64,000 nt of DNA from Candidatus Binatia bacterium. Its GTDB lineage: Bacteria > Desulfobacterota > Binatia > HRBIN30 > BPIQ01. The stretch is taken from positions 992,585 through 1,056,584 of the forward strand of contig BPIQ01000002.1 in the NCBI GenBank assembly GCA_026004195.1. The letters are read 5' to 3'. Shown piece after piece: positions 1 through 9,966 of this stretch (position 1 is the stretch's first letter; every line of letters starts with the position of its first letter). Below the pieces are notes generated by a model. It searched no databases. It was not told the DNA's origin and saw nothing but the letters and a program-made list of their open reading frames with translations. Both the position numbers and the translations under genes were made by a program.

Positions 1-2017
1 GGCGGAGCCGCTTATGATCGAGACTCGTGACGGGGTCGTCGAATACGATAGGAGACTTGTCCGGCTTGAGTGACGCCTCTGCCAGGAAGTCCGCCAGGGC
101 GATGACTTTCTGCTCACCTTCGGAAAGGATCTCGCTGAGCCCGTGTTCTGGCGTGAGCAGCTTGCGCCGCCGTGCTTCGCCCTCGCGGCCGGGGAAATCG
201 AGGTTGACGGTCGGCGCGCGCAAGAACTCGCACTCCTGCTTGAAACGGCTCTCGAACTCGCGATTGATGACCTCCGTGCTCGCGCGCTTGGCCGTTTCCG
301 TTAGACTACGCTTGATGCCCTGGAAACGGGCAAGGTGCGCTCGGGCGCGGTCCGCCCACTGAGCGGCGACCGCGAACTGGCGGATCTGAGGAAGGAGATC
401 CCGGAGAGTCCTGCGAGCTTCCAGCTCGCGGAGGCGTTTCTGGGCCGCAGCCAGTGCCTGCTCCCGCTCTTCGCCCTGCTTGCGAAGATCAACCAGGCTC
501 TTTTCGATCGACGCCACAGCGGCCTCGAGCGTCGCGGGTGCTTGCCGCAAGTGCTCAGGAAAGGGCGGACATTCCTGGTCCGCTGCGAAAGCCTCACGCA
601 TGCGACGAGCGTGTGCCACGCAGTCGCGTGCCATGACCAGGGGATTCGGCGGATGTGCAGGGTCCTCCGCGGCCTGGATGAGCCGTTCGATACCGGTCGC
701 CGCCTCATCCACGCCGAGCTCCACGATCGGGCGCTTCAGCGCCTCCAGGGATCGCCGTGCCTCGTCAACGGCCCTGCGCAGCTCTGCGTTGCAGTAATCC
801 CTGTACTTCTGGAGCAGTGCGACGGCCGCGTTGCCGAGCGGCTGGCGGCAGTAGATGCAGGGCTCCCCTGCCTGGGGGTACGGCTCGATACCCAACTGGC
901 GGATGTAGGCCTCCGCCGCTTCGACGAACTCCTTCCAGGCATCGCCGAGGATTCCGGGAACGGACTCGCCCGAGAGCGCCTCGCGGGTCGCGCGCTCGTG
1001 CCTCCGCGTGGCTTCACGGAGCGCGGAGAGAGCGCCGGCATACGCATCCCGATCGAACTCGGCGATCGCGTCCGCGATCACACGCGCTGCCTCGTAAACC
1101 CGTCGCTGCTCCTCGGCGCGCTGGATCGCCTGCCGCACGGCCCCTGAGCGCAGTGCTTCCACCTGGTCCCGCAGGCCGGATAGCTCCGCCTCTTCAGCCT
1201 CGGTCACCTCTGCGGCAGATTCCAGCTCTCTCAGGTCCGTCGAGGGACCGAGCGCCTCGATCTTGGGGTAAAGTGCGCTCTCGCGGCTGAACCTGCTGAC
1301 GAACGGGTTCCCTTGCGGTTGCCGTGACCGTCGGGCCTCCTCGAACTTGGCCTGAACCCTCTCGATCCCGTCCGTGACCAGGGGATACAGCGAGAGCTCG
1401 GCCGGCGTGTAGGTGTAGCTCAGATCCTCCGCGAGATGGACGACTGCGGCCCGAGCATCGAACACGTCGATTCGGGTGAGCGGTTCGACGCCTTGCTCCC
1501 CTTGCCATTCGATTGTCCGGTCCTCCTCGCCAACCCGGACCCGGACCTCTGCGCGCGGACCGTCCGCTTTAGTTGGGAGGTGGATGTTTGGCAGTACCGG
1601 CTCCGCCGTACGCACGGCAGCCGCGCGCTTCAGGATGCGGACATAACCGGTTTTCCCGCTTGCATTCTCTCCGAAACAGATCGTCAGCCGCGGGTGGAAC
1701 TCGATTTCCTGATTCGGAGCGAGAGCATTCACGTTTTCGAGGTGCTTCAGTCCGACGAGCCGGATCGGCAAACCGGCCGAAGCTGCGAGGCCGCTCGCCG
1801 TCAGGGAAGGCACGTCCTCCGGTTGCCCATCCGCGAGATCCTTCTCCCTGAGAAGCAGCTCGTAGAGCGCTGCAATCCGCTCATCGGAAAGCCGGCGCCG
1901 CGTCGCGATGACTTCCCCGACGAGTTTTCGGACCCACCGGTCCTGCCCATTCGCCCATTCCACGAGCATGTCAAGGCCTGAGGGCGGACGCGGGACAGTT
2001 TGCTCATCTGCGGTCAT
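1..2017 (-). CDS. RloC-like zinc-hook AAA/ABC ATPase (3' end outside window)
   Basis: Starts at the ATG at 2017, which overlaps the stop of the upstream TIGR02391 gene by 4 bp (ATGA), and runs off the left edge after about 672 residues. Visible motifs are a Walker A GENASGKT at residues 116-123, a long charged coiled-coil region containing a CIYC zinc-hook motif at 387-390, an ABC signature LSEGEQ at 631-636, and a Walker B PIVFDDPVTSLD with acidic residues around 660. This order (P-loop, coiled coil with CxxC hook, signature, Walker B) is that of RloC, an SMC/Rad50-like ATPase linked to type I restriction loci whose C-terminus is an anticodon nuclease. That C-terminal part lies beyond the window, so tRNA cleavage is inferred from family and location, not seen. 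It could instead be another AAA_13-type ATPase. Confidence 0.85.
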   Translation of the reverse strand, partial: MTADEQTVPRPPSGLDMLVEWANGQDRWVRKLVGEVIATRRRLSDERIAALYELLLREKDLADGQPEDVPSLTASGLAASAGLPIRLVGLKHLENVNALAPNQEIEFHPRLTICFGENASGKTGYVRILKRAAAVRTAEPVLPNIHLPTKADGPRAEVRVRVGEEDRTIEWQGEQGVEPLTRIDVFDARAAVVHLAEDLSYTYTPAELSLYPLVTDGIERVQAKFEEARRSRQPQGNPFVSRFSRESALYPKIEALGPSTDLRELESAAEVTEAEEAELSGLRDQVEALRSGAVRQAIQRAEEQRRVYEAARVIADAIAEFDRDAYAGALSALREATRRHERATREALSGESVPGILGDAWKEFVEAAEAYIRQLGIEPYPQAGEPCIYCRQPLGNAAVALLQKYRDYCNAELRRAVDEARRSLEALKRPIVELGVDEAATGIERLIQAAEDPAHPPNPLVMARDCVAHARRMREAFAADQECPPFPEHLRQAPATLEAAVASIEKSLVDLRKQGEEREQALAAAQKRLRELEARRTLRDLLPQIRQFAVAAQWADRARAHLARFQGIKRSLTETAKRASTEVINREFESRFKQECEFLRAPTVNLDFPGREGEARRRKLLTPEHGLSEILSEGEQKVIALADFLAEASLKPDKSPIVFDDPVTSLDHKRLR

Positions 2018-2883
2018 CCGGTGCCCCTCCTCTCTTCTGCCAAGGCCCTGGTCACCCGCTTGAATAGCAGGCTGACGAAGCACAGCCGTTCGATCGCGTC
2101 CATCGCGGACATCTGCTCGACATCGCCGTGGCTGTAGAGGTTCCTCATGCCGGACATGGCGCCCATGGTGAGGAACTTGAAGCCTTCTTGCTCGCTTCGG
2201 TCGTTGGCGGTCGTCAGGGCGTTGAGCGCGATGGGCGGCGGTTCGCCGCCGAAGGCTTTCGCCATCAAGTCGCGGCCGAAGGTCTTGTGATCGCCGAGGG
2301 TGTCTTGGACGAACTTCTCGAAGCGCTCCAGGGCCTTGCGGACGGCCTCGTTGAAGTGGCCGTCGCGAAACATCTCCGCGACGTCGTCCGCGAGCGCTTC
2401 GTGCAGGTCCAGGCGGTCGAGCAGCGCCACCATGTCCTGGGAGGGGTGCCGGACACGGCTCGGTTCGGGAATCTCGATGGCCTGGAGGTCCTCGCGGATG
2501 CGAAATCCCAGAACCTCCATCGGCTCCGCGATGGCGTCGAGGTGCTCCTTGGTCACTCGCTCGCCCTTGCGGGCCTTCCACTCGACGCCGCCGCGGACGA
2601 TGGCGAGGACCAGGGCCTTCGGCTTCCTGGGATAGCGCCGAATGACGTTTTCGAGCAAATGCGCGATGTCCGCCTTCTTGTTCCTCTGCTTCTTCCAGCA
2701 ATCCTTGAGCCCCATGTCGTCAGCGACCTTGCGGACACAGAAACCGGTCCCCGGGGACGTGGAAGGCGCGATCTCCGCCAGCGCGGCAGCAAGTCGCTCG
2801 ATCTGCTCCCGCCGTGCCTTCGTGATGCGCATGGCCGGCTTCGCTTTGGACGGCCGTGTTTTCCTCGAGCCACGACGGGTCAT
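2014..2883 (-). CDS. TIGR02391 (Ymh-type) protein with HEPN-like RxxxxH motif
   Basis: 289 residues from the ATG at 2883, whose first bases overlap the hsdS stop (ATGA); its own stop overlaps the start of the RloC-like gene in the same way, so the three are translationally coupled. The N-terminal 150 residues are basic and not recognised. Residues 165-260 look like the TIGR02391 family: FRDGHFNEAV at 172-181 and GAMSGMRNLYSHG at 241-253. The latter contains R247-x4-H252, the spacing of the catalytic motif of HEPN ribonucleases, to which I believe this family has been related. Such proteins are frequent in restriction and abortive-infection loci. The RNase role is inference; the family match is fairly secure. 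Confidence 0.75.
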   Translation of the reverse strand: MTRRGSRKTRPSKAKPAMRITKARREQIERLAAALAEIAPSTSPGTGFCVRKVADDMGLKDCWKKQRNKKADIAHLLENVIRRYPRKPKALVLAIVRGGVEWKARKGERVTKEHLDAIAEPMEVLGFRIREDLQAIEIPEPSRVRHPSQDMVALLDRLDLHEALADDVAEMFRDGHFNEAVRKALERFEKFVQDTLGDHKTFGRDLMAKAFGGEPPPIALNALTTANDRSEQEGFKFLTMGAMSGMRNLYSHGDVEQMSAMDAIERLCFVSLLFKRVTRALAEERRGTG

Positions 2884-4131
2884 GCGCTCGCCTCCTTCAA
2901 AGCCTTCGCCTGCTGCTCCATCTCCTGGAGCAGCTCCTTCATGTGTGACTCGCGCCAAGAGCGAGTGAGCGTCGTGTCGAACGCCTTGGCCAGCACGACT
3001 GCGAAAAGGTGATCGAGCAGGTGTTTGCTGGCTTGGCGCCGCTCAATCGACAGCCGGCGGTGCTCGACAATTGACGTGACCTTGTTCAGCGTATGTGGGT
3101 CGGGCACCGGGATCTCGAACTGCATGAGGTCGGGTGTGTCCAGTTTGCGCGTGCCGTGCCCCGCGGTTCGGACGAGCGAACTCAAAACGGGCTTCGCGAG
3201 GTAGAGTGCCGCCCAGACGTACGGTCCGGTCACGTCGTTCTTCTTAGGAATGAGCGCCTTCATGTCCTGGTTGATCGTGACAGGCCGGAGGTTGATCGCG
3301 ATGGGGATGTCGCGCGCGAGGATCATGCCGCGGACAACGATCAGGACGGCCCCTTCGTTGATGAGGGACAAGGTCGTATCGGACAGCGCGGCCAGCGATA
3401 CGTGATCCTGGCTGTCACAGAGGAAATCGCGCTTCATGTCCTTCGGAGACACCCACGGCACCTCGCCGTCCCAGAAGCGCTCCGCCTTCTTGGAAGGGGT
3501 TGCCCCGCTCACCGGGTCCACGAGTGCTTTTAAAGGCTTGCACTGCGGGCTCCCCGCCCAGGTTCGAGGGCTACCGAGGGTTCGAGCCAGGAGGGCCGGG
3601 AGGATGCGGTCGGCTTTGGCGTCGGCTTGGGCGCGGAGGCGGCGGAGGCGGTCGGCCTGGTCGAGGATCTCGACGATGCGGCGCTGTTCGGAGAGGGGAG
3701 GGAGGGGGACTCTGGGCCCAGAACCTGTCGAGAATGACCCGTGGCATCTTCGCCCCGGTGACGAACTGGGAAGCGTAGGCCGAGAAACGTCGGCTGATCT
3801 CAGGTAGTAGCCGAGGTACTCGCGCAGAACGAGTTGCGGTCTTTCGGGCGAAGGGGCATGAGTTCGGTAGTCGCTATAGCCCGGCTTCGTCGGGAACGCC
3901 GACCTTGTTCAAGGTACGGCCGGAGCTTCGAATAGAGGACGTCTCCTTCATCGAAGACGAAGGTGGAGTTGCCGGCGGAAGCAGCAGGCTTGACGCACTT
4001 GGTCGATGACGCGCCCGCGTTGGCTCTCGATGTGCTCAAGGCCGTAGTGCCAGCTCGTCGGTTGCAGGGCGAAACCGCCGCGGCTGCTGTCGGCGCGATT
4101 TCGAGCCAAGCGGTACCCGCGGCCACTCCAT
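2880..4131 (-). CDS. hsdS: Type I restriction specificity subunit HsdS, first half frameshifted
   Basis: HsdS chooses the DNA target of the HsdM and HsdR complexes through two target-recognition domains (TRDs). The second half is an uninterrupted frame from about 3720 to 2880. It holds the central conserved helix LPPLSEQRRIVEILDQADRL, then GATPSKKAERFWDGEVPWVS (start of TRD2), about 213 residues, and a C-terminal coiled coil. The first half (about 4131-3720) is only readable by switching frames repeatedly: MEWPRVPLG (probable start, 4131), HYGLEHIESQRGRV, FDEGDVLYSKLRPYL, TTELMPLRP, LREYLGYYLRS and FVTGAKMPR are each in different frames. As given, full-length HsdS cannot be made. The stop overlaps the next start by 4 bp. 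The cause could be decay of TRD1 or local assembly error. Confidence 0.8.
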
Positions 4132-4138
4132 CACAACC

Positions 4139-4275
4139 CCTCCACTTCTTCAGCAGCTTCTCCAGCCCCTCGGTGATCTCCTCTCTCGATCGCGAGCGCC
4201 TGCCGGATCAGCCTGACCGGGGTCTCGACGGCCCGCCGCTCGGCGACGCGGGTTGCGCAGGTAGCCGTCGCTCAT
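4139..4275 (-). repeat. Degenerate second copy of the hsdM 3' end
   Basis: Between the yhcG stop (4272) and the hsdS start, mixed reading frames encode RVAERRAVETPVRLIRQALA followed by ITEGLEKLLKKW. This closely resembles the last 40 residues of HsdM (PRVAEPV..., AELIREVLAIEKEITEGLAK) encoded at about 5620-5502. At the DNA level an 18-base stretch, from GGAGATCACC to GAGGGGCT, is shared. The two copies flank the yhcG-type gene. A 41-codon frame starts at 4275 with ATG overlapping the yhcG stop, but it does not follow the HsdM-like frame and is probably not a real gene. Confidence 0.65.
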
Positions 4276-5505
4276 CGCTTGTGTTCCTTCGGCCTCCGGG
4301 CCTCCAGCCGCCGCCGCGTCTCGGCGATCTCCGCGGCGAGGAGCTTTTCGTCGGGCAGCGCCGTGCGGTACTCGGCGGCGAGCACCTTGTTCGGCAGGTT
4401 GTCGAGGGCGTAGTGCGCGAGCGCCGCGTTCTTCTGCGCGCAGAGGATCAGGCCCACCGGAGGGTTTTCGCCGTCGCGCGTCCAGTGCTCGGCGGCGTAG
4501 TTGAGATAGACGTGCATCTGGCCGGCGTCGGCGTGGGTGAAGCGGCCGAGCTTCAAGTCGATGAGCACCAGGCAGCGCAGGCGGCGATGGTAGAAGACGA
4601 GGTCCACCCGGTACCATTCGTCGCCAATGCCGCAGCCGCTTCTGCCGGCCCACGAAGCAGAAGTCGCCACCCAGCTCGAGCAGGAACTCCTCCAGACGGC
4701 GGACGAGGGCCTCCTCGAGCTCGCTCTCGGAATACTCGTCCTTGAGGCCCAGGAACTCGAGGATGTAGGGATCCTTGACCTCCTCCTCGACCGCGACCTC
4801 GTCGCCCGCCGCCGCGCGGGCGCCTTTGCGAAGCATGGCCGCCTTGTCGCGCGAGAGCGCGGTGCGCTCGTAAAACTGGCTCTCGATCTGCCGTTCGAGC
4901 TGGCGGACCGACCAGCCGCCGCGCAGCGCTTCGGCTTCGTAGAAGCGCCGTGCCTCGTCGCTCTTGAGCGAGAGCAGGCGGACGTAGGCCGACCAGGGGA
5001 GTGGAAAGCACCCGGCCAGTTGCGACAGTCGCGAAACCGCAGACGCCATCTGCGCCTTTCGATGCGAGTCCGGCGAATCTTGGGTCCGCTTCGATTCCGC
5101 AGACAGCGTCTGCAAAATCTCCGGGTCGCCGGATTTGCCAGACAGCGTCTGGCGAATCCTATCGGGCGGATAGGCGAGGTAGAACTGCCGCATCTGTTGG
5201 AGGTTCTGGCGCGAAAATCCCCGGCCGAAGCGGCTCGAGAGATCGTGCGCCAGGCGTTCGATCGTCGCCGTCCCATAGCCAGCCCGCGCGCTTCCGCCCT
5301 GCTCGTACTCCACGATGCGCCGGCCGATCTCCCAGTACGTCGCCGTCATCAGTGCGTTGACGGCGCGAGCGGACGTCCGCCTGGCCTCCTCGAGAAGATC
5401 TACGATCCCGCCGACCAGGGTTTCGTACGCGGGCGCCGTGCTGTGGCGCGACGCGGCGGCCTGAGCGGCACGGACAAGGGATCGTTCGCTGCGGCGCCTG
5501 GTCAC
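4272..5505 (-). CDS. yhcG: YhcG/DUF1016-type PDDEXK nuclease domain protein, one frameshift
   Basis: Starts at the GTG at 5505, overlapping the hsdM stop by 4 bp (GTGA). The N-terminal part (residues 20-250) is the DUF1016 N domain, with ATYWEIGRRIVEYEQGG, RGFSRQNLQQMRQFYLAYP and GWSVRQLERQIESQFYERTA. Near 4630 one extra base shifts the frame: FVGRQKRLR must continue as IGDEWYRVDLVFYHRRLRC and LVLIDLKLGRF, the PDDEXK core (VDL then IDLK), then AALAHYALDNLPNKVLAAEY to the stop at 4272. As written, the nuclease core is out of frame. YhcG proteins are known passengers of type I restriction operons, probably accessory nucleases. Apart from the slip the sequence is well conserved, so the lesion is recent or a sequencing artefact. 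Confidence 0.85.
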
Positions 5506-7178
5506 GATTCGACCTCCCGCAAAAGCTTCGCGAGCCCCTCGGTGATCTCCTTCTCGATCGCCAGCACCTCGCGGATCAGCTCCGCCGGGTCCTCCTCGGG
5601 GACCGGCTCGGCGACGCGGGGCTTGTAGCGGGAGCCGGCGAGGTTCCAGTCGTTCTCGGCGATCGTGTCGAACGGCGCCCACCACGAACGCGGCTCCTCG
5701 CTTCCGGCCGGGAGCAGGGCGCCGGCCTCGACGCCGGGCGGCCGCTCGAACTTCGCCGCCTTGTACTCGGCCCACGCCGCCAGCAGGCCCGGGATGTCGT
5801 TCTTCTCCGGCGTCTCGGGCCGCCCGCCGCCCTGGATCTTGTCCGGGTCGTAGCCGTCGTTTCGGACCTCGTAGAACCAGACGTGCTTCGTCGCAGCCTT
5901 CCCCTTCGCCGGCTCGGTCTTCGGGCGGCGGAAGACGAGGACGGAGGTCTTCACCCCGGCGTAGGGCTTGAAGACTCCGGCCGGAAGCGAAACCACGGCC
6001 TGGAGCTCGTACTCGCGCAGCAGCTTCTCGCGCAGCTCCTTGTGGGCCGAGGTCGAGCCGAAGAGCGCGCCCTCGGGCACGACCACCGCGCAGCGCCCGC
6101 CCGGCGCGAGCGAACGCATCATGAGCGCCAGGAAGAGCAACTCGCTCTTCTTCGACTTCGTGGGCAGGTCCTGACGGATCGACTCCTTCGGGATCTGACC
6201 GGCGAAGGGCGGATTCGAGAGGATCACCGAGTAGCGGCGGTTCAGATCGTCCTCCGTGAGACCGCTCATCTCGGAGAGCACGTTGGCGCGCTTGAGGTTT
6301 GCCTTGCGGATCCCGTGGAGCACGAGGTTCATCATGGAGATGCGCATCATCTGGCGGGAGACGTCGGTGCCGTAGATCGAGGCCTCGAGCCGGCCCCAGT
6401 CGGGGATCTTCTCGCCGGGCCCCTTGCGGTAGGTCTGGAGGTTGGGAATGTCCTTCTTGGCCTCCTCGAGCGTCTGGCCACGTTTCTCCAGCCACTCCTC
6501 GCCGTAGATCGGCACCTCCTCGGGCTCCTCGCTGTAGCGGGCGAGGATGTAATCCACGACGTCGATGAGAAAGCCCGCTGTGCCGCAGGCGGGGTCGTAG
6601 ATCGTGTCGCCGAGGTCGGGATCCACCATCTCGACCATGAACGCGCGGATCTGGCGCGGGGTCCGGAACTGGCCGTTCAGCGCTGACTGGCCGAGGTGGG
6701 TGAGCAGGTACTCGAAAATGTCGCCCTTGACGTCCGGGCCGAGCTTGCGGAAGTCGATCGAGTCGAGCTCGTCGATCACCTGCTTGAGCACGTTCGGGTC
6801 GACGATCTCGAGGACCGCGTCGCGGAAGTACTCGGCGACCTGCGGCTCGTCCTTCACGAGCGAGGCCATGTAGGGAAAGACTTCGTCGCGCAGGAAGTCG
6901 CGCAGCTCGGTACCGCTCTTGAAACGCCACTTCGACCAGCGGAAACGCTCGGCCTGACCGGGGAAGAGCCGCACGCCGTTGCCGGTACCGGCTGCGTGCG
7001 TACCGCCTCCAGCTTGCAGGAGGCGGCCCCTGAGCTCCCGGGTCGCCTCCTCTTCGTCGAGGAGCTTCAGGTAAATGAGGTAGGAAATCTGCTCGATGTA
7101 GGTCACGGGATTGGTGACCCCGCCCGCCCACAGGATGTCGGTGATGCGGTCGAGCTTGCGGCGCAAGTTCTGATCCAT
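5502..7178 (-). CDS. hsdM: Type I restriction-modification DNA methyltransferase subunit HsdM
   Basis: Intact, 558 residues. HsdM forms the adenine-N6 methyltransferase with HsdS and protects host DNA. An N-terminal helical domain (1-150) is followed by GQFRTPRQI (169-177), the SAM-binding motif DPACGTAGF (195-203), IYGTDVSRQMMRI (268-280) and the catalytic NPPF (322-325). The C-terminal end EEDPAELIREVLAIEKEITE is a coiled coil that in this family contacts HsdS. The ATG at 7178 is 19 bp after the hsdR stop, with a GGAGGGAAGAAGG ribosome-binding stretch between them. The stop overlaps the GTG of yhcG. All methyltransferase motifs are present, so modification could work if an HsdS is available. 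Confidence 0.95.
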   Translation of the reverse strand: MDQNLRRKLDRITDILWAGGVTNPVTYIEQISYLIYLKLLDEEEATRELRGRLLQAGGGTHAAGTGNGVRLFPGQAERFRWSKWRFKSGTELRDFLRDEVFPYMASLVKDEPQVAEYFRDAVLEIVDPNVLKQVIDELDSIDFRKLGPDVKGDIFEYLLTHLGQSALNGQFRTPRQIRAFMVEMVDPDLGDTIYDPACGTAGFLIDVVDYILARYSEEPEEVPIYGEEWLEKRGQTLEEAKKDIPNLQTYRKGPGEKIPDWGRLEASIYGTDVSRQMMRISMMNLVLHGIRKANLKRANVLSEMSGLTEDDLNRRYSVILSNPPFAGQIPKESIRQDLPTKSKKSELLFLALMMRSLAPGGRCAVVVPEGALFGSTSAHKELREKLLREYELQAVVSLPAGVFKPYAGVKTSVLVFRRPKTEPAKGKAATKHVWFYEVRNDGYDPDKIQGGGRPETPEKNDIPGLLAAWAEYKAAKFERPPGVEAGALLPAGSEEPRSWWAPFDTIAENDWNLAGSRYKPRVAEPVPEEDPAELIREVLAIEKEITEGLAKLLREVES

Positions 7179-7197: not shown

Positions 7198-9925
7198 TTA
7201 GCCGGCGGCCTTGAAGACCCCCTCGTTGAGTTCGTCCACCACCTGCTTGAGCCCCTCCTCGCCGAAGAGCTCGATCCCCTTGCCGGCGGCGTCGAGGATC
7301 GAAAGCGGCGGCTCGAAGAGGTCCTCGAGGCGCACCCGGCCGGTCGCGATGCCGCGGTTCTTGAGGAGGCACAGGTACTCGGCCTGCTGCGGTGTCAGGG
7401 AGCGCGCGACGAGCCAGGCACGAAACGCCTCCTCGAGCTTCTCTTCCCGGCTCTTGATGCGCAGGCGGCCGAGGGCCGCGCGGATGAAGTCGACGAGCGA
7501 CCCGCCCGGGTTGCGGTAGGCGCGGCGCAGGTTCTCCTCGTTGAAGTAGTGGTCGGGTTGGTTGAGGCGGCGGGCGAGTTCCTCTTCTTCCTCGGGCTCG
7601 AGCGGCTCCTCGTCGCGGACCTTGCGCAGGATCGGGTCGTCGTGAACCGCCTGCCGGACGGTTTCCTCCCAGTGGGAGACGTACTCTTTCTTGTCGATCC
7701 GCTCGCCCTCCGGGCCGACCTCGATCCAGGTCACGGCTTCGAGCCACTCGTCCTCGAGACCGAGCTCGACGAGCTCGCCGGGGGGCTTGGGCGGCGTCGG
7801 CCGTGCCCCGGGGCCCCCGGCCTCCGCCCGTCCCGGTGAAGACGTCGGTGTCGGAATCGTTGAAGTATTCGTGGTTTTTGAAGAAGTCGTAGATCACGAA
7901 CTTTCGCTTGCCGATGTGGGGCGCGGTGCGCGTCCCGCGGCCGCGCATCTGCTGGTAGAGGATGGGGCTGCGGACCCGGCGAGCCAGAACGAGGTGGAGC
8001 ACTTCGCGGCAGTCGAAGCCGGTGTCCAGCATCCCGACGCTCACCGCCACCATGGGGTAGGTCTCGGTTTTGAACTTGCGGATCAGGGCGTCCGGGTCGG
8101 CGACGTCCGAAGTGATGACCTCGGCATAGCGCCCCTTGAGCTCGGGGTGCAGCTCGTTCAGGTACTGGGCCAGACGGGCGGCGTGGTGCTTCGTGATGGC
8201 AAAGACAATCGCCTTGCCGGGGCCGGGATCCTGCCCGGGGGCCAGCTCCTTGTAGTGCTGCCAGGCCAGGCGGTCGAATTCCTCCATCATCAGGCGGTTC
8301 GTCGCCTCGTTGGTGAAGCGGCGCTCGAACTCGGCCGGATCGTAGTGCTCGTCGTCCACGTCGGCGCCCTCGGCGAGGATCTCGGTGATGCCCGTCGCGA
8401 AGCGGTAGGGTACGAGGTACTGGTCACGGAAGGCATCCTGGATGGGGTAGGAGAAGTCGGGCTTGCCCGGCTCGCACTGGTAGAACTCGTAGGTGTTGCG
8501 CTCGATGTAGTTGGCGGGCGTGGCGGTGAGCCCGATGTGGATGGCGTCGAACTTCGTGAGCGCCGTCTGCCAGGCGCCGTAGATCGAGCGGTGGCACTCG
8601 TCGGCGATCACCACGTCGAAGTAACCGGCCGTGTACTCGTCGACGCGTCCGATCATCGTCTGGAGCAACGCCACGGTGATCTGCTGTTCTTGCCGCGCCA
8701 TGCCGGGGCGCAGCCAATAGCTCGAGTACGCCGGAAGCAGGTCCTGGATCGCCTCGAGCGCCTGCTTGGCGAGCTGGTCGCGATCGACCAGGAAGAGAAC
8801 CCGCTCGGCCCAACCTGCCCGGAAAAGGCGTTGGAGATAGAGGCAGATCAGGTCGGTCTTCCCGGTCCCGGTGGGCAGCTCGATCAGGAAGCGGCGCTTC
8901 CCGAGCTCGAGGGCGTGGTCGAGGGCGCGCATCGCGTCGGCCTGGTAGAGCCGCACGGTGCGCGTCTCGCCCTGCCGGATGTAGTGCTCGGGAATCTCGA
9001 CCGTGGCAAGAGGTCTGCGGCTGCTTCGCATCTCCACCAGACGCTCGAGGTCGCGCCGCGAGAAAAACCCCGCAATCGGCCGCGCGTCGTCGTTCTGCCA
9101 GTCCCAGAAGTAGGTGAGCTCCCCGTTCGTGAGAAAAATGAAGGGCGCGCCGAGGGCCTTGGCGTACGGGAGCGCCTGTTGCTTGGCAACGTAAGGGTTG
9201 ATCGCGTTTTTTTTGGCCTCGATCACCGCGAGAGGGCGGCCACGATGGTCGTAGAGGACGTAGTCGGCGCGGCCGCGGTCGGCTCGCTCGCTTCGGGCGC
9301 CGGTTCGAGGACGCAGACGAACTCCCCGATCACGCGCAGGTCGCCCTCGGCACTCGGGTCGAACACGAGCGGTTTGTAGGCCGGGTCGGGGTTCAAAGGC
9401 TCCAGACGGATCTCGCGGTGCGACCACGTGCCGTCGGGATTCTGGGTCTTCTTACTGACGTACCGCTTCACGGAAAACTCGCCGCCGAGTGTGGGGTCGG
9501 TACACCCCCGGTGCCACACGAGAACGAGCTTCCCCTGCCGGGTGCCGCCCCGATCGGCTCGGAAGAGACACCAGGAGCCGTGGGGGATCGTCGGCTCCAT
9601 GGAATGACCTTCCACCCGCGCGATGAAGTGGTCGCGGGTGAGGCGGACGTGTGGGGGCACGGCCATCCAGCCCTGTTCGTCGGGGAGCTGGGCCGACCGG
9701 CGCATCCGCGCCGAAGGCGCCGGCCGCAGCAACGAGATCGTAGACGGGGGCGTGCGTTTCGAATGGGCGCGCACGGGAGCGGTCGACCACCCCGGTCCTT
9801 TCCGCTTCCGAGGCTACCGTCACCTCCGCCCGCACGGCGGACTTGTCGGCCGGATCCCAGCCTGCCTGCCGGAGCAGGTCGTCGATGGCGATCCGGGCGT
9901 CCGCTTCGGTCTCGTGCCGGCTCAT
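7198..9925 (-). CDS. hsdR: Type I restriction HsdR with embedded S24 peptidase domain, three frameshifts
   Basis: Reconstructed length is about 909 residues from the ATG at 9925 (MSRHETEADARIAIDDLLRQ). The start has a weak GGACGAG 9 bp upstream and sits about 23 nt after the predicted sigma-54 start point. Order: N-terminal helices; an S24 domain with VAAAGAFG (possible Ala-Gly self-cleavage site), GHSMEP (nucleophile Ser near residue 108) and FSVKRY (Lys near 153); nuclease motif DYVLYD then IEAKK; helicase motifs PTGTGKT, DECH, TATPANYIERN and QMRGRGTRT; C-terminal segment to the TAA at 7198. Reading through needs frame changes near 9727 (one extra base), 9290 (one base short) and 7815 (one extra base, in a G/C-run region). 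As given the subunit would be truncated. Confidence 0.85.
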
Positions 9926-9947
9926 CGGGCGTAACTCGTCCATTGCG

Positions 9948-9966
9948 AGGTTGCGAAGCGCAACCT
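9948..9966. promoter_or_regulatory. Perfect 8-bp inverted repeat over the -12/+1 region of the hsdR promoter
   Basis: AGGTTGCG (9948-9955), a 3-base centre AAG, then CGCAACCT (9959-9966). The repeat covers the -12 element and the predicted transcription start of the sigma-54 promoter. It could be an operator for a repressor. It is too far downstream to be the usual enhancer site of a sigma-54 activator. Confidence 0.45.

Follow-up and report, generated by a model that had tools for sequence, protein, structure and literature searches.

A Ymh-type HEPN gene overlapping a predicted RloC-type anticodon nuclease gene at the 3' end of a type I restriction operon: a candidate two-gene suicide module

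The window analyzed here is a stretch of 64,000 nucleotides from the genome of a Candidatus Binatia bacterium (G000:C2:992585-1056584). It opens within a run of minus-strand genes in the order hsdR, hsdM, a YhcG/DUF1016-type nuclease gene, hsdS, Ymh, RloC, an OLD-like ATPase gene (P0003), and P0004. The last part of this run lies in the flank to the left of the window (L002), in which each position equals the window position plus 10000. The features are as follows.

7198..9960, minus strand: hsdR, with HSDR_N, ResIII, EcoEI_R_C, and Peptidase_S24 in different frames
5502..7178, minus strand: hsdM, intact, 558 aa (N6_Mtase, HsdM_N)
4272..5505, minus strand: gene for a YhcG/DUF1016-type PDDEXK nuclease, between hsdM and hsdS (PF06250, E 1.1e-32)
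2880..4126, minus strand: hsdS, with its second target-recognition region intact (about 2880-3580) and its first broken by several frame switches
2880..2883, minus strand: ATGA overlap of the hsdS stop (2882-2880) and the Ymh ATG (2883-2881), read from the sequence
2014..2883, minus strand: Ymh/TIGR02391 gene (P0001), 289 aa, PF09509 and TIGR02391, with the conserved R/H and a HEPN-like fold
2143-2145, minus strand: R247 codon of Ymh
2128-2130, minus strand: H252 codon of Ymh
2014..2017, minus strand: ATGA overlap of the Ymh stop (2016-2014) and the RloC ATG (2017-2015), read from the sequence and kept in the second genome described below (L055)
1..2017, minus strand: RloC-type gene (PDC-S06, AAA_13), residues 1 to about 672 of 860, the gene ending 565 bases left of the window; this part holds the ABC ATPase halves and the coiled coil
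848-859, minus strand: zinc hook C387-x2-C390 in the RloC coiled coil
-293 to -466 in window numbering, minus strand: RloC triad R771/E775/H828, outside the window
Left of the window, 3' of RloC, minus strand: P0003, an AbiEii/OLD-like (OLD/DUF3696-like) ATPase gene
L002 6699-7643, minus strand: P0004, the final gene of the operon, 314 aa

P0004 is without a significant match in Pfam, NCBIfam, or PADLOC. The P0003 gene before it apparently starts as an ATGA within the RloC stop codon (L002 9438-9435, as read from the sequence), and upstream of its P-loop it apparently has two insertions of one base each, spaced by about 30 bases (L002 9300-9460). The Ymh and RloC genes both start in the stop codon of the gene before, as the first-pass annotation had noted, and these two ATGA overlaps suggest, from gene layout, a matched production of the proteins.

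The evidence supports a HEPN protein, its RxxxxH motif conserved, as the product of the first gene of the pair. The protein scores above the cut-offs of PF09509 (Hypoth_Ymh; E 3e-25, 88.9 bits against 25) and TIGR02391 (64.1 bits against 39.45), and the residues singled out by the first-pass annotation, R247 and H252, do lie within RNLYSH, an instance of the HEPN Rx4-6H motif. In an alignment of 26 rows, which include near-duplicates, the first position is R in 23 and K in two, and the second is H in 24. The protein (predicted model, pLDDT 90) is divided into an N-terminal helical domain (residues 20-135, approximately) and a C-terminal HEPN domain (about 155-285). Foldseek with the whole model returned only helical-bundle noise; the HEPN matches came from a separate structural aligner, in which residues 160-285 matched 2hsb (Z 9.2, 110 aligned, rmsd 3.3), 7ae6 (Z 8.2), 8oz7 (Z 8.1), and 8pe3 (Z 6.3), a set that includes 2hsb, a HEPN toxin, AbiA, and Csm6', and non-HEPN structures reached Z values of 4.6 at most. 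Because of this motif and fold, we predict an RNA-cleaving role for Ymh. Anantharaman et al. (PMC3710099) count Ymh among the HEPN families that have the catalytic motif and record it from operons with restriction-modification (R-M) genes.

Pfam gives no match for the N-terminal domain, and a profile built from it finds only the L055 protein and a 220-aa protein in another genome (G013, L016), which was itself part of the profile and whose initial link to P0001 was weak (21 bits); read by eye, the C-terminal half of this protein is REase-like. In a search of 395 genomes of the phylum, no other one had a full-length relative of Ymh, and no relative of P0001 was found in viral contigs. P0001 also matches PADLOC PD-Lambda-3_B (E 1.3e-12), and it resembles both this protein and the Ymh proteins of R-M operons (PMC3710099) in its C-terminal HEPN domain with Rx4H and in its defence neighbourhood. 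However, Ymh here has its own N-terminal domain, and its partner is RloC rather than a nuclease or paraMORC. PD-Lambda-3 is a two-gene system in which a PD-(D/E)XK protein accompanies Ymh, whereas Ymh here is directly flanked by hsdS and RloC and the YhcG-type nuclease gene comes only beyond hsdS. On an Enterobacter plasmid, a Ymh gene adjoins a restriction endonuclease gene, not RloC.

The second gene is supported, from its domain architecture and conserved residues, as a predicted RloC-type anticodon nuclease with a zinc hook and a catalytic triad. The 860-aa protein matches the PADLOC candidate family PDC-S06 over its full length (E 2.3e-125) and also AAA_13 (E 3e-14). The zinc hook that the first-pass annotation had recognized is CIYC, with C387 and C390 in the coiled-coil insert that splits the ATPase, and these cysteines are kept in all 92 relatives of a 94-sequence alignment. 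Walker A, signature, Walker B, and the switch histidine are all present, and G116, K122, E633, G634, D660, D661, and H692 are conserved in at least 91 of the 94 rows. The same annotation had proposed looking for the nuclease residues left of base 1, and a complete triad is present there: the C-terminus reads LRGACE...IASHS, that is, R771-x3-E775-x52-H828, with S827 preceding the His. The published pattern is Arg-X3-Glu-X36-52-His, often with a Ser before the His, and in the RloC of G. kaustophilus the replacement of any triad residue abolishes activity (Davidov and Kaufmann, PMC2610378). In the rows of the 94-sequence alignment that cover the triad, the R is present in 92/92, the E in 92/92, and the H in 91/92, and across 63 aligned nuclease domains the only four invariant columns are one glycine and these three residues.

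For the nuclease domain, the predicted structure (pLDDT 87.6) is HEPN-compatible, yet indistinguishable from other helical bundles: HEPN chains are among its top matches (2hsb, Z 8.8, 98 aligned, rmsd 3.4), tied with unrelated ones. A sequence search of the PDB gave no useful relative apart from ABC ATPase cores. The isolated nuclease-domain fragment is too distant from the other PDC-S06 models of PADLOC to match them and finds only the long-class ones; kinship with the characterized RloCs therefore rests on the shared architecture and triad. With the RloCs of G. kaustophilus and A. baylyi, tRNases that are switched by DNA breaks (PMC2610378, PMC3874168), the protein shares the ABC ATPase, the zinc-hook coiled-coil insert, and the C-terminal R-x3-E-x36-52-H triad, and its length falls within the known range of 658-897 aa. 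It differs from them in that its gene overlaps a Ymh HEPN gene and sits in a type I operon, and in belonging to a long PDC-S06 subgroup in which about 90 conserved residues precede the ATPase head. Break sensing and tRNA cutting are predicted for this protein because of its homology.

The best relative of this RloC returned from 84,980 species genomes is 68% identical and belongs to a Thermoanaerobaculia MAG (L055). A Ymh gene lies upstream of RloC there too, with the identical ATGA overlap; the pair sits after genes that read as pantothenate-synthesis enzymes, and no match to hsd genes was found on the 13.9-kb contig. A single break, at about 6765 in an A/G-rich run (CCAAAGAAAAGAAG), interrupts the Ymh frame of L055 and may be an error, decay, or a programmed shift. 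Differences between the two genomes fall mostly at third codon positions, and dN/dS against this relative is about 0.17 for RloC and about 0.21 for the C-terminal part of Ymh, values that show purifying selection on both genes. Because L055 keeps the same pair and overlap without hsd genes, the conserved unit, to judge from these two loci, is Ymh-RloC and not HsdS-Ymh-RloC.

The pair is known from two genomes, probably of one class only, and is rare among 80 RloC loci. Close relatives of RloC are mostly alone or behind genes such as those for type III restriction, methylases, or relaxases. A same-strand gene ends at most 150 bases upstream of RloC in 23 of 51 close loci; in six of these 23 (L049, L059, L060, L064, L098, and L099) RloC comes directly behind type III restriction or methylase genes, and the other upstream neighbours are relaxases, AAA ATPases, or genes without assignment. 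Linkage to R-M genes is thus occasional in this RloC group, as the published 8/73 (PMC2610378) would suggest, and Ymh is a rare partner. In three actinobacterial genomes (L066, L072, and L079), the gene that overlaps the RloC start by four bases, upstream of 10001, encodes an AAA_2-type ATPase of about 400 aa, a different recurrent partner of RloC. We excluded from the count of pairs a Bacteroidia MAG (L114), in which the Ymh beside a distant RloC is a C-terminal remnant (5932-6132); this remnant abuts RloC near an apparent tRNA 3' end, at an island border. We also left uncounted a 245-aa frame overlapping RloC in L056, which is without a Pfam match and resembles a spurious high-GC frame.

The type I genes in front of the pair are in an irregular state. 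In hsdS, only the downstream half is a single open frame, and in a three-frame reading the HsdS segments of the first half alternate between frames; PF01420 finds one target-recognition region (C2:995683-996105) and a fragment (996220-996294). The second hsdS of the genome (C2:313493-314632) is one open frame. hsdR switches frame at about 7790-7840 and around the Peptidase_S24-like segment, the YhcG-type gene switches once near 4632 by codon-usage decoding (a retrained run, indicative only), and the OLD-like gene P0003 also switches. Because residues are recognizable on either side of each switch, these switches look more like consensus insertions and deletions than old decay; either poor sequencing or decay of the locus may lie behind them. 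If the switches are real, the R-M system here is dead and could not act as a first line of defence. Within the hsdR region (about 9000-9960, minus strand), the LexA/UmuD-like Peptidase_S24 segment (9226-9774; PF00717, E 3.6e-9) separates an HsdR-like N-terminal stretch from the catalytic HSDR_N part, and the pieces stand in different frames; should they form one protein, an SOS-type autoprotease within HsdR would be unusual. Halomonas (H61) has a 47%-identical S24 stretch, for which no HsdR fusion is shown. At 4126-4272, after the YhcG-type gene, the 3' tail of hsdM (RLIRQALAIER / EITEGLEKLLKK) occurs a second time in frame-broken form, as if insertion of the YhcG-type gene between hsdM and hsdS had been accompanied by a duplication.

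The reading that we favour, and consider somewhat probable, is that Ymh and RloC form a translationally coupled two-gene module for cell suicide or dormancy at the 3' end of the type I operon, with RloC as a break-sensing tRNase and Ymh as a second HEPN RNase. The RloC ATPase would most likely sense DNA breaks or linear DNA arising in infection, including those made by restriction, and RloC would then cut host tRNA in the anticodon loop, so that translation stops. Ymh would most likely be the second, metal-independent RNase, docked by its N-terminal helical domain to another protein, for which RloC and the R-M complex are plausible candidates. In this scheme, we infer the trigger, the tRNA target, the RNase activity of Ymh, its contact with RloC, and the role in phage defence. 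Several observations weigh against this reading: the small number of genomes with the pair, the broken Ymh frame in L055, the lack of another full-length Ymh relative in the phylum set, the ambiguous fold of the RloC nuclease domain, and the frame-broken neighbours. A stronger version, in which the two proteins constitute one two-nuclease defence system, mobile behind an R-M operon or alone, whose break-sensing ATPase in RloC also switches the RNase of Ymh, is one that we regard as doubtful.

The first-pass annotation had read the pair as a two-stage backup tied to HsdS, and in a PrrC-like arrangement one or both nucleases would be held inactive by the type I complex of the same operon and freed when anti-restriction proteins of a phage disable that complex. 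The coupling of Ymh to hsdS, the precedent of PrrC together with the occurrence of PrrC, RloC, and Ymh genes in R-M operons (PMC3710099, PMC12707154), and the six close RloC loci directly after type III restriction or methylase genes speak for such a guard. PrrC of EcoprrI, the guard of a type Ic R-M system, is likewise an anticodon nuclease gene linked to hsd genes, but PrrC is a protein of 341-416 aa without a zinc hook, silenced by the R-M complex and invariably tied to a type Ic hsd locus, whereas the protein here has 860 aa and a CxxC insert, and its closest relative is without hsd on its contig. In A. baylyi, moreover, the R-M system neither silences nor activates RloC, which responds to DNA breaks and functions in R-M mutants (PMC3874168), most close RloCs are alone or behind other genes, and hsdS and hsdR are frame-broken here. 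In known RloC the ATPase is the switch and answers to DNA breaks, not to a loss of restriction, so production in step with HsdS does not imply silencing by HsdS. The two findings that the first-pass annotation had named as counter-evidence, a C-terminus lacking a nuclease domain and an R247/H252 that is not conserved, were both looked for, and neither was made. We keep from the first-pass interpretation the RloC-type anticodon nuclease and the HEPN protein with RxxxxH, find the tie to HsdS, as stated there, unsupported, and consider the guard unlikely.

It is equally improbable, in our estimate, that RloC is the sole effector, with Ymh, as a regulator or RNA-binding partner, holding it in check or presenting the substrate to it. 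Tight gene coupling fits this idea, some HEPN domains function without catalysis (PMC3710099), and known RloC requires no second nuclease; against it, the catalytic motif R247/H252 is conserved in the family and in L055. The two genes might also have come together by chance in a defence island, as independent systems that share one promoter. The run of eight genes from different defence families, several of them frame-broken, the duplicated hsdM tail, the rarity of the pair, and the Ymh remnant that abuts RloC at the border of an island all favour this possibility. The objection is that a second genome, where the flanks are different, has the same Ymh-RloC pair and overlap, with purifying selection on both genes, and we hold chance neighbourhood to be rather doubtful.

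Returning to the favoured module of a break-sensing tRNase with a second RNase, its parts, namely RloC, Ymh-HEPN, and HEPN genes in R-M operons, are each known already; the tight pairing, seen in two genomes, is new. Our literature searches on SPARHA with HEPN, and since 2020 on HEPN together with restriction-modification, anticodon nuclease, and operon, found none. An infection-abortion module of this kind is credible and not radically new. If the pair is one system, two known RNase families would be joined under one DNA-damage sensor, and RloC, which is held to be self-sufficient, could take a second nuclease as its partner. R771/E775/H828 on the one side and R247/H252 on the other offer a clear mutational test of tandem RNases acting together or in sequence.
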